Shown: positions 8,647-64,000 of the stretch, one piece after another
Layout of the letters: every line of letters starts with the position of its first letter
Position numbering within the stretch: position 1 is the stretch's first letter
Source of the DNA: Luteibacter sp. dw_328
GTDB lineage: Bacteria; Pseudomonadota; Gammaproteobacteria; Xanthomonadales; Rhodanobacteraceae
Direction: 5' to 3'
Assembly (NCBI RefSeq): GCF_018449605.1
Contig: NZ_JAAVUW010000009.1
Location: 1-64,000 of the forward strand
Length of the DNA stretch: 64,000 bases
Notes under the pieces: model-generated
Told to the model about the DNA's origin: nothing
The model's input: the letters and a program-made list of their open reading frames with translations, nothing else
The model's database searches: none
Translations under genes and position numbers: made by a program

Positions 8647-10986
8647 TCAGAACGGCAAGGCAAGCGTCCGGTCCACCGCCAGCAGACGCTGGCGGAACGC
8701 CTGTTTCACACGCTCGAGCGCCTTGGCGGTGTCCGCGTCGAAGCGGAACACCAGCGCCGGCGACGTGTTCGATGCGCGAACCAGGCCCCAGCCGTCGGGC
8801 CAGTCCACCCGGATACCGTCGATCGTCGTGACTCGCGCGTCTTCGAACGTGGCGGATGCGCGGAACGTTTCGATGAAACGGAAGGGCGCGCCCTCCTCCA
8901 TCGGCAACCGCAGTTCCGGTGTGGAGATGCTGGTAGGCAGCCCTTCGAACAGGGCCGCGACGCTGCGCTCCTCGAGGTCACCGGCAACGATTTCGAGCAA
9001 GCGTGCGGCGGCATAGATGCCGTCGTCGAAGCCGTACCAACGATTGTTGTCAGCGAAGAAAAAGTGCCCGCTCATCTCACCGGCCAGGGCGGCGCCGGTT
9101 TCGCGCATCTTTGCCTTGATCAGCGAATGGCCCGTGCGCCACATGAGCGGAACACCGGCGGATTCCTGGATCACCCGGCGCAGGTGGCCCGTGCATTTCA
9201 CGTCGAAGATCACCGTGGCGCCCGGGTTGCGCGCGAGCACGTCCTGGGCGAACAGCATGAGCAAGCGGTCGGCGTTGATGATCTCGCCGCTGGCCGTGAC
9301 CACGCCGACGCGATCGCCATCGCCATCGAACGCGATACCCAGATCCGCTCCGATGGTATGGACGGCGGCGATGAGATCGCCGAGGTTGCGCGGATCGGAA
9401 GGATCGGGGTGGTGGTTCGGGAACGTGCCGTCGACGTCGCAGTACAGGGGCACCACTTCGCAGCCGATTTCCTCGAGGACGCGGGGGGCGACGGCGCCAG
9501 CGACGCCATTGCCGGCATCGACCACGACCTTCAGGCGACGTTCGGCGGAGACATCGCCGGCGATCTTCGCCACGTAGGCATCGATGATCGATTGCTCGCG
9601 CCATGCGCCCAGGCCATCTTCCTCGAGGCGACCCTCCGCAATGCGGCGATGCAGGTCGGCAATCGCGCCCTCGGCAAGCGTCTCCCCGCCGACGACGATC
9701 TTGAAGCCATTGTGGTCGGGTGGGTTATGACTTCCCGTCACCGACACGGCGCAGCCGGTACCGAAGTGGAACGCGGCGAAGTAAGCCACGGGGGTCGGTA
9801 CCGCACCAAGATCGATCACATCGATGCCGGCGGCGCGGAGGCCATCCATCAGCGCGCCAGCGAGCTCAGGGCCCGACAGGCGCCCGTCGCGACCCACGAC
9901 GATTTCACGCAGGCCGCGCTCGTTCATCAGGCCGCCGATGGCCTGTCCAATGCGACGTGCGATATCGGCTGTGAGCTGGGTGCCGACGATGCCGCGAATG
10001 TCGTAAGCGCGGAAGATGGCCGGGTCGAGCGCCACTACGGACGCCCGCGCCACCGGTTTCGCCGAGGGCGCGGGCGTGTCGCCCCGACCCAGCGTCGGTG
10101 CCGGCGGCAGACGCGGCTTGCGCTCCACGTCGGCGATGAGGACTTCCTCCGGTTCCGGTTCGGCCTGCGGCTGCGGCCGCTGCCGGGCCCAAAGCAGCAG
10201 GACGCCACCACCGATGCCGATGAGCGTCAGCAGGACAGCAAGCAGCTCGGAGTGCGGAATGACGATGAACGCCTTCGGCAACGCCGCATAGACATAGAGT
10301 GAGGTGCCCGGAACCTGCTGGGCATCCGGCGAGGTCTCACCCGCGGCGGAACCGACCGACTCGAGCATGAGACTGTCCCCGCCGTTGCCCTGGCGCAATT
10401 CGAGACGACCGCTGGACGGCGACGACGCCATGAATTTCTGGCGGATGTCGTCGAAGGGGTATTCGAGCCAGACCCAGGCGCGCACCGCGCCGTCGGCGTT
10501 TACGGGCTCGGCCACCGTCAGCCGGCGGTCGTTGCCGTGCACGGAGCTCGATGCGAGAGGCGCCCCGGTCGTACCCAATGCCGCCATCAACTGCGCTGCC
10601 TTGGCGTAGCCGAACTCGCGGTAATTCGCCCGGACGACTTCATCCAGGCCACCGCTATAGATTTCAATATCGGACGTGGCCGGAAGCAAGGCACGCAGGC
10701 GTGCGGCGGTGGCAACGTGATCGTCGATGCCCGCTGCGACCTCCGGATTGCCTACGGCCTGCATCAGCTGGCTGTGTCGGCCGGCATATAGCTCGCCGAG
10801 GTCGTGGACGGCCTGACGCTGTGCCGAACGCGTACGTTCGGCCGCATCGCTCTCGTCGGCGATAAGCCATGCCTGCCACGCGCAAAATGCACCGCCGACC
10901 GTGAGCAACGTGGCGCCGATCAACGGCAGCACGCGTCGCACGTCGATACGAAGCCCCCGCTTCGCCCCTCCCTCGTTACGCCCCAT
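8647..10986 (-). CDS. algC: Phosphomannomutase/phosphoglucomutase with membrane-anchored periplasmic N-terminal domain
   Basis: The C-terminal ~450 residues form an AlgC-type alpha-D-phosphohexomutase: the catalytic serine loop is VTGSHNPPDHNGFKI, the metal loop DGDGDR and the sugar-binding loop GEMSGH. It supplies Man-1-P/Glc-1-P for exopolysaccharide and LPS. The first ~270 residues are an addition to the catalytic core: TM1 near 15-35, a periplasmic region of about 200 residues, and TM2 near 247-267 (LLAVLLTLIGIGGGVLLLW). That layout looks like a sensor module tethered to a cytoplasmic enzyme. Last gene of coaBC-dut-algC. Confidence 0.9.
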   Translation of the reverse strand: MGRNEGGAKRGLRIDVRRVLPLIGATLLTVGGAFCAWQAWLIADESDAAERTRSAQRQAVHDLGELYAGRHSQLMQAVGNPEVAAGIDDHVATAARLRALLPATSDIEIYSGGLDEVVRANYREFGYAKAAQLMAALGTTGAPLASSSVHGNDRRLTVAEPVNADGAVRAWVWLEYPFDDIRQKFMASSPSSGRLELRQGNGGDSLMLESVGSAAGETSPDAQQVPGTSLYVYAALPKAFIVIPHSELLAVLLTLIGIGGGVLLLWARQRPQPQAEPEPEEVLIADVERKPRLPPAPTLGRGDTPAPSAKPVARASVVALDPAIFRAYDIRGIVGTQLTADIARRIGQAIGGLMNERGLREIVVGRDGRLSGPELAGALMDGLRAAGIDVIDLGAVPTPVAYFAAFHFGTGCAVSVTGSHNPPDHNGFKIVVGGETLAEGAIADLHRRIAEGRLEEDGLGAWREQSIIDAYVAKIAGDVSAERRLKVVVDAGNGVAGAVAPRVLEEIGCEVVPLYCDVDGTFPNHHPDPSDPRNLGDLIAAVHTIGADLGIAFDGDGDRVGVVTASGEIINADRLLMLFAQDVLARNPGATVIFDVKCTGHLRRVIQESAGVPLMWRTGHSLIKAKMRETGAALAGEMSGHFFFADNNRWYGFDDGIYAAARLLEIVAGDLEERSVAALFEGLPTSISTPELRLPMEEGAPFRFIETFRASATFEDARVTTIDGIRVDWPDGWGLVRASNTSPALVFRFDADTAKALERVKQAFRQRLLAVDRTLALPF

Positions 10987-60273: not shown

Positions 60274-60906
60274 ATGAAGACGAAAACAGCTCAACTCATA
60301 CGCGAATACGGTCCCTTCCCGGGTGTCGACAAAGTCGCCGGCGTGACGTTCGACGGCAAGCAAGTGTGGCTCGCCTCCGGCGACCATTTGCGAGCCCTCG
60401 ACCCCGACAGTGGCGAGATCGTGCGATCGATCGATGTGATGGCGCATGCCGGCACCGCGTTCGACGGCACGCATCTCTTCCAGATTGCCGAGGACCGCAT
60501 CCAGAAGGTCGACCCGAAAACCGGCGAAGTACTGGCCTCGATCCCGGCGCCCGGTAACGGTGGCGACTCCGGCATGGCATGGGCCGAGGGCACGCTATGG
60601 GTCGGCGAATACCGCAACCGGAAGATCCATCAGGTCGACCCCGAGACCGGCGCCGTGCTTCGCAGCATCGACTCCAATCGCTTCGTCACGGGCGTCACCT
60701 GGGTCGACGGCGAGTTATGGCACGCCACCTGGGAAGACGATGTCAGTGAGTTGCGGCATGTCGACCCTCGATCCGGCGAGGTACTCGAGAGCCTGGACAT
60801 GCCGACCGGGGCGCACGTGTCCGGCCTCGAATCCGACGGGAAGGACGGCTTCTTCTGCGGTGGCGGCAACAGCGCCGTGGTTCGGGCGGTGAAGCGCCCG
60901 CGATAA
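60274..60906 (+). CDS. Beta-propeller (glutamine-cyclotransferase/PQQ-like repeat) protein
   Basis: 210 residues made of repeated ~40-residue blades (HLRALDPDSGEIVRSIDV, RIQKVDPKTGEVLASIPA, KIHQVDPETGAVLRSIDS, ELRHVDPRSGEVLESLDM). No signal peptide. Such short propellers are often annotated as glutamine cyclotransferase-like, but the catalytic residues cannot be checked here. AGGAT precedes the ATG; it starts 9 bp after the regulator at 59044, which may control it. Confidence 0.7.
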   Translation: MKTKTAQLIREYGPFPGVDKVAGVTFDGKQVWLASGDHLRALDPDSGEIVRSIDVMAHAGTAFDGTHLFQIAEDRIQKVDPKTGEVLASIPAPGNGGDSGMAWAEGTLWVGEYRNRKIHQVDPETGAVLRSIDSNRFVTGVTWVDGELWHATWEDDVSELRHVDPRSGEVLESLDMPTGAHVSGLESDGKDGFFCGGGNSAVVRAVKRPR

Positions 60907-60916
60907 CCTCCGGGCG

Positions 60917-61828
60917 CTAGGCGCCGGCGTCCAGCTCCGCGGCGATGAAGTCGACGAAGGTCCGCGCCGCCATGCGCGTGGCACGGCCCAACGGGAAGTA
61001 CGCATGGACCGGCAAGTCGGCCATCTTCCACTCCGGCAGCAGCTGCGTGAGCGCACCACGGTCGAACTCCCGGCGGCAGGCCCATGAGGTGGTCGAGGTA
61101 ATGCCGAGGCCACCCACCGCTGCCGCCAGCGCCCCTTCCGTGTCATTCGTGGAGACGTTCGGCTGCACGTCGATCGAGGTCGATTCGCCATCGCGCTCGA
61201 ACTGCCACGAGGTCACGGCCATGCCTGCCGGCCCACGAACGATGCGATGGCTCACGAGATCCTCGGGCCGCTGCGGCGTGCCGCAACGAGCCAGGTAGGT
61301 CGGCGAGGCGACGATGACACGATGCATCTTGCCGATCAGCCGGGCGGTACCACCCGAGTCGGGAAGAGGCCCCACGCGGATACCGACGTCCACCGCCTCG
61401 CGGACCATGTCCTGGCGCTTGTCGTCGAGCAGCAACTCGACCTGGAGCGAAGGGTGGCGCTCGGTGAAAGTGGACAGCCGCGGGATCACCACGCGAATGG
61501 CCAGCGTCGACGGCATGCCGACCCGCAGCACACCACGCAGCTCACCGGTCTCGCGCACGCTGTTCTCGGCATCCTCAATGGCCGCAAGGATCGGCTCCAT
61601 GCGCGCAAGAAATTCCAGGCCAGCCTCGGTCGGCAGGACGGCGCGGGTGGTCCGCGATAGCAGGCGCACGCCGAGGCTGGCTTCCAGCTCGGCCACCATG
61701 CGCGAGACCTGCGATTGCGCCAGGCCACTCTCGCGCGCGGCCGCGGAAAAGCTGCCGAGCCGGGCGACGCGGGTATAGAGCCGGAACGTAAGGATGTCCT
61801 TCAAGCGGCCCCCGGCATTTATGCTCAA
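60917..61828 (-). CDS. LysR-family transcriptional regulator
   Basis: 303 residues: an N-terminal LysR wHTH (FRLYTRVARLGSFSAAARESGLAQSQVSRMVAELEASLGVRLLSRTTRAV) and a periplasmic-binding-protein-like effector domain. The only in-frame start is TTG 61828 (an upstream in-frame TAG excludes extension), which overlaps phased ATGCT/AGCAT half-sites. It is divergent from the borosin methyltransferase, 109 bp apart, so it is a candidate regulator of that cluster, though its family is generic. Confidence 0.9.
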   Translation of the reverse strand: MSINAGGRLKDILTFRLYTRVARLGSFSAAARESGLAQSQVSRMVAELEASLGVRLLSRTTRAVLPTEAGLEFLARMEPILAAIEDAENSVRETGELRGVLRVGMPSTLAIRVVIPRLSTFTERHPSLQVELLLDDKRQDMVREAVDVGIRVGPLPDSGGTARLIGKMHRVIVASPTYLARCGTPQRPEDLVSHRIVRGPAGMAVTSWQFERDGESTSIDVQPNVSTNDTEGALAAAVGGLGITSTTSWACRREFDRGALTQLLPEWKMADLPVHAYFPLGRATRMAARTFVDFIAAELDAGA

Positions 61829-61937: not shown

Positions 61938-62774
61938 ATGAACACACCTCTCGTGGCACCTCCGAAGGATACGCGCCAAGGCAGCCTCGCCGTCGTCGGC
62001 ATGGGCATGACCCTGGGTTCCCATCTCACCCCGCTGTCGCGCAGCCACATCGAACAGGCTGACGTGATCTTTGCCGGGCTCTCCGACAACATCGTCGAGC
62101 AGTGGCTCCAGCGCATGAACGCCGACGTGCGTAGCCTGCAGCCCTATTACAAGGAAGGTAAGTCGCGCCGGAAGACCTACGAGGAATGGGTCGACCTGAT
62201 GATGACCGAAGTCCGCGCGGGCAAGCGCGTCTGCGGCGTCTTCTATGGCCACCCGGGCATCTTCGCCTGGTCGCCGCACAAGGTCATCGAAGTCGCCCGT
62301 GCCGAAGGCTTCCAGGCTCACATGGAACCGGGCATCTCCGCCGAAGACTGCCTCTACGCCGACCTGGGTATCGACCCGGGCACCGTCGGCTGCCAGCACT
62401 TCGAAGCCGGCCAGATTCTTTTCTATGAACGCCGCATCGATCCCAGCGGTTATCTCGTCCTGTGGCAGGTCGGCCTGGTCGGCGATCGTTCGCTCGCCCG
62501 CTTCACCACCAGCGGCGCCTACCGCCAGGTGCTGGTCGACGTGCTGAGCAAGGACTACCCGCTGGATCACGAGATCATTCTGTACCGCGCGGTCACCCTG
62601 CCGATCCAGAAGCCGCGCATCCGCCGCATCGCCCTGCGCGACCTGCCGTTTGTGGACGTGCCGACCGAAGAGACGGTGATCCTGCCGCCGGCCGCCACGC
62701 TCAAGCCCAACCACGAAATCCGCGAGCGCCTGGCTGCGCTGGACAAGCTGGAAAAAGAAGCATCCGTGGCATAA
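61938..62774 (+). CDS. Split-borosin alpha-N-methyltransferase (SonM/OphMA-like SAM methylase)
   Basis: 278 residues of the tetrapyrrole-methylase fold. It should iteratively N-methylate backbone amides of the precursor peptides that follow. The N-terminal SAM strand is SLAVVGMGMTLGSH. Y71, R77 and Y81 (YKEGKSRRKTY) and Y103 (VFYGHPGIF) match OphMA Y66, R72, Y76 and Y98 with a constant offset of five. Unlike fungal OphMA, no core peptide is fused at the C-terminus. ATG 61938 is preferred; an ATG at 61875 adds 21 unconserved residues. A TACTAT -10 ends 7 nt before ATG 61938, so the mRNA may be leaderless. Confidence 0.9.
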   Translation: MNTPLVAPPKDTRQGSLAVVGMGMTLGSHLTPLSRSHIEQADVIFAGLSDNIVEQWLQRMNADVRSLQPYYKEGKSRRKTYEEWVDLMMTEVRAGKRVCGVFYGHPGIFAWSPHKVIEVARAEGFQAHMEPGISAEDCLYADLGIDPGTVGCQHFEAGQILFYERRIDPSGYLVLWQVGLVGDRSLARFTTSGAYRQVLVDVLSKDYPLDHEIILYRAVTLPIQKPRIRRIALRDLPFVDVPTEETVILPPAATLKPNHEIRERLAALDKLEKEASVA

Positions 62775-62821
62775 GCCACTCATTCAACTACCACATCAAC
62801 AACCGCAGGAAGGGGAAGGTC

Positions 62822-63055
62822 ATGCTGGACACGATTGATATGTTGGAAGCCATCGGCAGCGATGCGTCGTTGCGCTATGCGTCGACGGTGGAACTTACGA
62901 CTGTGCTCGAGCAGGCCAAGGCCTCTGATGCACTGACGGCGGCCGCGATCACCGGTGATGCCTCTCATTTGGCGCAGGAATTTGGTAGCCGGAGAATGTA
63001 CGACCCTCAGGCTACGCAGAGTTTCTTCTCTGCGGATCAAACTCCGTTCTCCTGA
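62822..63055 (+). CDS. Borosin precursor peptide 1
   Basis: 77 residues. The leader MLEAIGSDASLRYAS plus two predicted helices form the binding domain, followed by GDASHL (45-50), which parallels MTGDMEKL of SonA. The C-terminal tail, about residues 56-77, ends YDPQATQSFFSADQTPFS and is the presumed core that the methyltransferase modifies. AGGAAGGGGAAGG precedes the ATG, 47 nt after the methyltransferase stop, so it is in the same operon. The tail is three residues longer than in its paralogues. Confidence 0.88.
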   Translation: MLDTIDMLEAIGSDASLRYASTVELTTVLEQAKASDALTAAAITGDASHLAQEFGSRRMYDPQATQSFFSADQTPFS

Positions 63056-63076
63056 CGGACTAGCTTCGCAGGTAAC

Positions 63077-63099
63077 GACCTTGGTGTGACGCCAAGGTC
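63077..63099 (+). other. Intercistronic hairpin between precursors 1 and 2
   Basis: A perfect 8-bp stem GACCTTGG / CCAAGGTC (63077-63084, 63092-63099) with a 7-nt loop lies in the 84-bp spacer. There is no T-run, so it is more likely an mRNA-stability or processing element than a terminator. Confidence 0.55.
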
Positions 63100-63139
63100 G
63101 GCACTTAGCCAAATCGACAAGCGCAGGAGACCCAAGGTC

Positions 63140-63364
63140 ATGCTGGACACGATTGAAATGTTGGAAGCCATCGGCAGCGACGCCTCGTTGCGTTATGCGT
63201 CGACGGTAGAGCTCACTCACGTTCTCGAGCGCGCTCAGGCCACCGGCGCCCTGACGGCCGCCGTGGCATCCGGCGATGTTTCTCACCTGGCTCCCGAATT
63301 CGGCCATGCGAAGAATTTTGCGCCTCAGGCCACTCAGACGTTCCTTTCGTCCGACCTGGAGTGA
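63140..63364 (+). CDS. Borosin precursor peptide 2
   Basis: 74 residues. The first 23 (MLDTIEMLEAIGSDASL onward) are identical to precursor 3 and differ at one position from precursor 1. GDVSHL (45-50) is followed by the tail FAPQATQTFLSSDLE. GCAGGAGACC is the ribosome-binding site. High identity at nucleotide level to precursors 1 and 3 indicates recent duplication. Confidence 0.87.
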   Translation: MLDTIEMLEAIGSDASLRYASTVELTHVLERAQATGALTAAVASGDVSHLAPEFGHAKNFAPQATQTFLSSDLE

Positions 63365-63462
63365 TTCCTCTGCTCAATAAGTAAGCAGCACGCGACCATC
63401 CAGGTTGAGCCGGATCGTCATCATCGCTTTACCGAACCCACAACCACAGGAAGGGCAAGGAC

Positions 63463-63687
63463 ATGCTGGACACGATTGAAATGCTGGAAGCCATCGGCAG
63501 CGACGCCTCGTTGCGCTATGCGTCGACGGTGGAACTTACGAATTTGCTTGACCAGGGTCAGGCAACGACGGCCCTTACGGCAGCTGTTATGTCGGGCGAT
63601 GCCTCCCACCTGGCACGGGAGTTCGGTGACATGACGAACTTCGTGCCTCAAGCCACGCAGAGCTTCGTTTCGTCGGATCTCAACTAA
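63463..63687 (+). CDS. Borosin precursor peptide 3
   Basis: 74 residues, same architecture: invariant leader, variable helix 2 (LLDQGQATTALTAAVMS), GDASHL, and tail FVPQATQSFVSSDLN. MSGDASHL aligns with MTGDMEKL of SonA, as I recall that sequence. The ribosome-binding site is CACAGGAAGGGCAAGG. The 98-bp spacer from precursor 2 has no strong hairpin. Confidence 0.87.
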   Translation: MLDTIEMLEAIGSDASLRYASTVELTNLLDQGQATTALTAAVMSGDASHLAREFGDMTNFVPQATQSFVSSDLN

Positions 63688-63738
63688 GACGTCTACGCAG
63701 ACGATATTGTCTCTTTAGGCGGCCCCAAGCGGGTCACC

Positions 63739-63767
63739 CGGTCGACGAGCGAGTCCAATGTCGACCG
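63739..63767 (+). other. Intercistronic inverted repeat between precursors 3 and 4
   Basis: A perfect 8-bp repeat CGGTCGAC / GTCGACCG (63739-63746, 63760-63767) encloses 13 nt in the 110-bp spacer, with no T-run. It has a different sequence from the hairpin at 63077 but a comparable position. Confidence 0.5.
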
Positions 63768-63797
63768 TCTACGCGATAACCACAGGAAGGGAACTGT

Positions 63798-64000
63798 ATG
63801 ACGGACACACTAGATATGCTGGAAGCTATCGGAAGCGATGCCTCACTGCGTTACGCGTCCATGACAAACCTGGCGAGCGTGCTGGACAGAGCTGACGTTT
63901 CTGAAGCTCTCGCGGCAGCGGTCGCATCTGGGGACTCCTCCCACTTGGCCCGAGAATTCGGCCACAGGCAGATGTTTCTACCTCAGGTCATACAGAGCTT
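63798..64000 (+). CDS. Borosin precursor peptide 4 (partial, runs off the window)
   Basis: 67 residues are visible. LDMLEAIGSDASLRYAS and GDSSHLAREFG are conserved, the middle has diverged (MTNLASVLDRADVSEAL), and the tail begins FLPQVIQS. Many third-position changes relative to precursors 1-3 in the leader leave the protein unchanged, so this copy is older and under purifying selection. CACAGGAAGGG precedes the ATG. The C-terminus and any further copies lie outside the window. Confidence 0.85.
   Translation, partial: MTDTLDMLEAIGSDASLRYASMTNLASVLDRADVSEALAAAVASGDSSHLAREFGHRQMFLPQVIQS

Follow-up and report, generated by a model that had tools for sequence, protein, structure and literature searches.

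At the right-hand end of a 64,000-nucleotide stretch of Luteibacter sp. dw_328 DNA (the window, which is the first 64 kb of the 212,133-base contig C21 in a genome of 5.05 Mb), we found a row of genes that almost certainly encodes a type IV split borosin and whose last gene encodes a predicted membrane sensor. The genes lie on one strand in the order SonM-like methyltransferase, seven precursors, and a sensor gene combining tetratricopeptide repeats (TPR) with a GGDEF domain. A functional tie between precursors and sensor is quite probable, and the peptides are likely signals for the adjoining sensor rather than ordinary secreted products; we also lean, by a modest measure, towards the full model in which N-methylated peptides are the ligands of the TPR sensor. 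The open reading frames (ORFs) of the row are as follows.

61938..62774, plus strand: SonM-like alpha-N-methyltransferase gene, 278 residues, identified by its PDB match and active-site residues.
62822..63055, plus strand: precursor A1, 77 residues.
63140..63364, plus strand: precursor A2, 74 residues.
63463..63687, plus strand: precursor A3, 74 residues, the copy chosen for structure prediction.
63798..64000, plus strand, running on past the window edge to C21:64007: precursor A4, 69 residues.
C21:64088-64294, outside the window: precursor A5.
C21:64374-64595, outside the window: precursor A6.
C21:64779-65081, outside the window: precursor A7.
C21:65084-66856, outside the window: TPR-GGDEF sensor gene, 590 residues, starting two bases past the A7 stop.

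An initial annotation of the window had described a stand-alone borosin-type methyltransferase serving at least four tandem precursors. The split-borosin arrangement, with tandem precursors for one methyltransferase in the order Lysobacterales, is supported, and the four precursors in the window do share one strand; the count rises to seven, three more lying further along the contig. Extension of the contig to the right, which the annotation had proposed, revealed A5 to A7 and then the sensor gene, with only precursors, and no protease or transporter gene, between methyltransferase and sensor.

The identity of the enzyme is well defined. A phmmer search of the PDB matched 26 sequences, 25 of which are borosin enzymes, with SonM at the top (E 2.4e-74, 253 bits) and the fungal borosin dbOphM at 173.6 bits. 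SonM and the window enzyme are identical at 120 of 251 aligned residues, and the SonM residues Y58, R67, Y71 and Y93, which were probed by mutation (PMC8429565, available part of the text), correspond to Y71, R77, Y81 and Y103, all of them kept. The search and these residues together identify a stand-alone borosin-family alpha-N-methyltransferase, as had been claimed. The annotation had itself named clustering with CobA/CbiF-type enzymes as the outcome that would count against it, and a tetrapyrrole-type methylase accompanied by unrelated small proteins would agree with the passing score of the window enzyme for the Pfam superfamily model TP_methylase. Nevertheless, the only tetrapyrrole enzyme in the PDB match list was the precorrin methyltransferase 2e0k at 21.8 bits, and the tetrapyrrole equivalogs of NCBIfam fell below their cut-offs (TIGR01465, 20.3 bits against 259.65; the other cob/cbi models likewise). 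Given the far stronger match to SonM, the retained active-site residues and the precursors alongside, we rejected this reading as extremely improbable. By homology to SonM, the precursors are likely N-methylated on the backbone.

The seven ORFs directly downstream are separately encoded precursors of one family. Precursors 1 to 4 all contain IGSDASLRYAS and GD[A/V/S]SHL, and GGAAGGGG, GGAG, GGAAGGG and GGAAGGG, respectively, stand upstream of their ATG codons, in agreement with the shared leader and ribosome-binding sites first described. Mean pairwise identity among the seven copies is 66.8% at residues 1-55 versus 41.4% at residues 56-68, and all 23 genomes of the genus contain matches to a family profile; this contrast between leader and tail, together with the profile matches, indicates a family beyond chance. 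Each of the seven has Pro-Gln-x-x-Gln in its presumed core, and their leader is an N-terminal five-helix borosin binding domain. A profile alignment to SonA runs without gaps from residues 1-58 to residues 1-58, with GDMEKL in the SonA chain where the precursors have GDxSHL, so the likeness to SonA claimed for this motif holds for its position and not for its identity. SonA was reached only by profile and fold: a single precursor sequence gave nothing over cut-off against Pfam, NCBIfam or PDB, Foldseek alone gave no PDB match at E 0.001, and BLASTP of A3 against the SonA-like precursor of locus L113 gave no alignment.

We traced the linkage of precursor and sensor across the genus, for which we sampled 23 genomes and counted genes as being at a locus, or nearby, when they were within 6 kb. 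The methyltransferase occurs in all 23 (41 genes), and 36 of these genes are followed by a sensor on their own strand. Among 66 TPR-sensor matches, 41 are at a methyltransferase locus and 49 have a precursor directly upstream. The 80 precursor matches form three groups: 35 directly precede a sensor at a methyltransferase locus, 31 belong to such a locus without directly preceding a sensor (these include array copies), and 14 directly precede a sensor with no methyltransferase nearby; none falls outside both settings. We inspected 20 of the 25 sensors that lie away from a methyltransferase and found a precursor about 290-360 bases ahead of 13, so these sensors failed as an unrelated control. 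Two TPR sensors are encoded in the window genome, each at a methyltransferase locus. One of these loci (L093, on contig C15, methyltransferase at 10210-10980), the third in this genome, has three precursors followed by a TPR-GGDEF gene, and one of its precursors shows several F-x-x-x-L-M/V-like tail repeats, as if it held multiple cores. One methyltransferase match elsewhere in the genus (G021:C1:1028407-1029216) holds one inner stop codon.

In many other bacteria precursor and sensor genes are neighbours, including places that lack a methyltransferase gene in the vicinity, and on this ground we read the peptides as likely signals. The initial annotation had anticipated a set of peptides from one operon; there are indeed several precursors, but since the row ends in a sensor gene, past the window edge and hence missed, and since precursors in the genus always accompany a methyltransferase locus or a sensor, a natural-product set is probably an incomplete description, with signalling the better-supported role. 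Biosynthetic clusters often contain regulators, and an ordinary secreted product, for instance a growth-inhibiting one, could have its production tuned by cyclic di-GMP (c-di-GMP) while the cyclase senses something else. Several cores per enzyme would suit a product family, and fungal borosins are bioactive (PMC8429565, available part). We nonetheless consider such a product unlikely, as a regulator of biosynthesis would not need the 14 precursors that are paired with a sensor in the absence of the enzyme, and as the TPR part stays while the output domain changes between GGDEF, histidine kinase and none.

This pattern of constancy and change extends well beyond the genus. The enzyme was detected in 128 of 197 sampled genomes of the family, 9 of 369 genomes of the class sample (own genome counted), 29 of 79 genomes in the family of genome G370 and, in a search that started from SonM, 69 of 295 in the order of G370. 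In 115 locus rows, two of them duplicates, we looked for a GGDEF or histidine kinase gene of at least 400 residues within 4.5 kb downstream, and found one in 99 (GGDEF in 89, histidine kinase in 10). The kinase at locus L113 has TPR, HisKA, HATPase, two receiver and Hpt domains by Pfam, and is preceded by a 67-residue SonA-like ORF. The same gene order recurs in two orders whose enzymes are 34-60% identical. We examined 20 more loci from the order of G370; the first eight, with enzymes 69-93% identical to SonM, consist of enzyme, SonA-like precursor and GGDEF gene. At all 20 a TPR profile matched a gene adjacent to the enzyme; 13 of these loci had contributed to the profile, and the other seven matched at 3.7e-8 to 1.8e-56. 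At two of these seven, L211 and L219, the matched gene encodes a secreted-looking TPR protein without an output domain. The TPR parts of GGDEF-type and kinase-type sensors align over 336 columns (probability 99.8), and alignment of the same-genus-family set with the SonM-like set covers 340 columns (99.77). Precursor and TPR part are the constant partners, with output (cyclase, kinase or none) and local methyltransferase varying, as would be expected of a ligand-receptor pair sharing a modifying enzyme.

Further genes were seen at some of these loci. An ORF of about 165-230 residues, GNAT-acetyltransferase-like by eye, stands just before the methyltransferase or between methyltransferase and precursor at L063, L150, L152, L153, L156, L164, L167, L169-L172, L208, L209, L212, L214 and L216 (other order). 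Methyltransferase genes form a tandem pair at L146, L147, L150, L157 and L089. At the distant loci L117, L118 and L119 (34-40% identity) an ORF that is MFS-transporter-like by eye comes after the enzyme, and no sensor is present.

The sensor itself scores 140.6 bits against the Pfam GGDEF model (cut-off 23.8), with an intact motif that reads GGEEF, and its predicted model shows an N-terminal TPR superhelix. By hydropathy, a hydrophobic stretch precedes the output domain in 111 of 111 sensors, and an N-terminal stretch exceeds 1.4 in 90 of 111. We describe the protein as a predicted bitopic TPR diguanylate cyclase, which would produce the messenger c-di-GMP and whose TPR part hydropathy would tentatively place in the periplasm. 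We also considered a Cys pair as a mark of methyltransferase-linked sensors, and this failed, the pair being present in 20 of 20 other sensors too.

A mechanism consistent with these observations can be proposed. The N-terminal helical domain of each precursor would dock on the enzyme, as in SonA, and the methyltransferase would place methyl groups on the backbone of the C-terminal tail, the variable core comprising approximately residues 57-70. The core would then be released and passed to the periplasm, and N-methylated peptides may cross membranes. There the peptide would be held in the TPR superhelix and alter cyclase activity via the one transmembrane helix. The methyltransferase would serve distant precursor-sensor pairs in trans, and the array would diversify the ligand, with the sensor-adjacent, long acidic-tailed A7 as the putative ancestral ligand and A1-A6, recent tandem duplicates, supplying variation in the core.

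Several observations weigh against this model, the main one being that the row contains no exporter or protease gene. This absence would suit a variant in which the TPR part of the sensor binds the methylated precursor in full instead of a released peptide, and methylation tunes the binding. Strict precursor-sensor pairing and the long acidic tails of A7-type copies point the same way, as does the RcbA/RcbB pair, in which a protein partner relieves a TPR domain (PMC12282931, available part). We regard this variant as rather unlikely: residues 56-68 vary more than the leader, as is expected of a released core, and, with the TPR part predicted to be periplasmic and no signal peptide on the precursors by eye (no predictor was run), the whole precursor and the sensor would not meet. 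The missing signal peptide counts against peptide ligands as well, as do the weak similarity of the precursors to SonA in sequence and the score of the sensor with the Pfam TPR model (19.9, cut-off 23.5), so that the TPR assignment rests on the predicted model. The Cys pair, in addition to having no specificity for methyltransferase linkage, does not occur in the 11 sequences of the kinase type.

The linkage also has exceptions. Of the 66 TPR-sensor matches in the genus, 17 have no detected precursor directly upstream, including 7 of the 20 inspected away from a methyltransferase; 5 of 41 methyltransferase genes have no downstream sensor, one of which (in G014) has a GGDEF gene upstream; and 16 of the 115 locus rows have no output gene as defined above, among them the distant L115-L119, L087 with its GGDEF gene upstream, and L053 and L054, which end at a contig end. 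In the window genome itself, the locus on contig C11 has three precursors and no sensor. The sensors without a precursor, and this same-genome locus, could indicate that the sensor is a mere neighbour, co-inherited without a functional tie. We judge that highly unlikely given that gene order is kept between two orders despite the divergence of the enzymes, and that 14 precursor-sensor pairs have no methyltransferase nearby. At the C11 locus (L083 / L177; G000:C11, methyltransferase at 486967-487776), the second methyltransferase locus of this genome, one precursor stands before the enzyme and two after it, and a large ORF follows that is TonB-dependent receptor-like by eye.

Copy number of the precursor varies among close relatives. 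The nearest relative, G010, whose enzyme is 94% identical, has twelve precursor matches; two copies of this array (L064) are identical as proteins, and one is partial, its matched frame lacking a start codon. In G014, with an enzyme 92% identical, there are two precursors, and most loci have one. The last, sensor-adjacent copy has a long acidic tail in the window genome (G000), G010, G014 and G017, and the other copies are without it. In a tree of array copies the acidic-tailed last copies of the four genomes cluster together (91/91); as the tree is otherwise weak, with 0 of 19 inner branches starred, we used only this grouping. The likely history, given this weak tree, is one sensor-side precursor followed by recent tandem copies.

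Upstream of the row lies one further gene of note.

60917..61828, minus strand: LysR-type regulator gene, divergent, with LysR_substrate and HTH_1 over the Pfam cut-off.

This gene adjoins the methyltransferase and is kept upstream in Luteibacter sp. OK325 (L036; 91% identical). A small beta-propeller-like ORF at 60274-60906 (Pfam Glu_cyclase_2) also lies upstream and is kept in OK325 together with the LysR gene, at 88-91% identity. Scans of the row for promoters (1 versus 0.7 in shuffles) and terminators (4 versus 2.6) were near chance and were not used.

We put at about even the wider proposal that type IV split borosins are a form of bacterial signalling, in which TPR receptors coupled to diguanylate cyclases or hybrid kinases have the N-methylated peptides as their dedicated ligands, one enzyme acts in trans for dispersed pairs, and the ligand gene has been amplified in Luteibacter to seven and twelve copies for one receptor. 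With a receptor gene linked to the precursor, the purpose of split-borosin peptides has a direct answer that can be tested. If the proposal is true, backbone N-methylated ribosomal peptides would join the known kinds of bacterial signal, membrane TPR cyclases with unknown ligands would gain a ligand class, and natural arrays of seven or twelve cores per enzyme and receptor would be available for specificity mapping.

Comparison with known systems sets these results in context. SonM/SonA, the type IV split borosin of Shewanella oneidensis MR-1, likewise has a separate S-adenosylmethionine-dependent methyltransferase with the same active-site residues, and a small precursor with an N-terminal helical domain and C-terminal core (PMC8429565, available part); a GGDEF gene also directly follows the precursor in a genome with an enzyme that shares 93% identity with SonM. 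It differs in having one precursor where there are seven here, whose presumed cores carry Pro-Gln-x-x-Gln. In the available portion of the main text of PMC8429565, the terms GGDEF, diguanylate, tetratricopeptide, TPR, sensor and c-di-GMP do not occur. Fungal fused borosins (OphMA, dbOphMA) have a homologous methyltransferase domain, with the precursor fused to the enzyme (PMC8429565) where it is separate here. On the sensor side, RcbB of Vibrio vulnificus also has TPR ahead of its GGDEF domain, and its TPR part represses the cyclase until the adjacently encoded partner RcbA relieves the repression; there both proteins are predicted to be cytoplasmic, the partner is itself a TPR protein, and the available part of the source names no peptide precursor or methyltransferase (PMC12282931). 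Diguanylate cyclases of Vibrio parahaemolyticus with predicted periplasmic TPR, cited in the same part of PMC12282931, share the predicted bitopic layout, and their interacting targets are there said not to have been identified. We found no report linking borosins to a diguanylate cyclase or sensor in the open-access literature, a scope outside which the main split-borosin surveys (Imani et al., Cho et al.) lie; one paper, PMC9505594, contains 'borosin' and 'histidine kinase', each a single time. The enzyme and precursors of the window are members of an already known kind, the type IV split borosins; as far as our searches of that literature go, the link to a sensor, the precursor-sensor pairs distant from any enzyme, and arrays that reach seven and twelve precursors are new.
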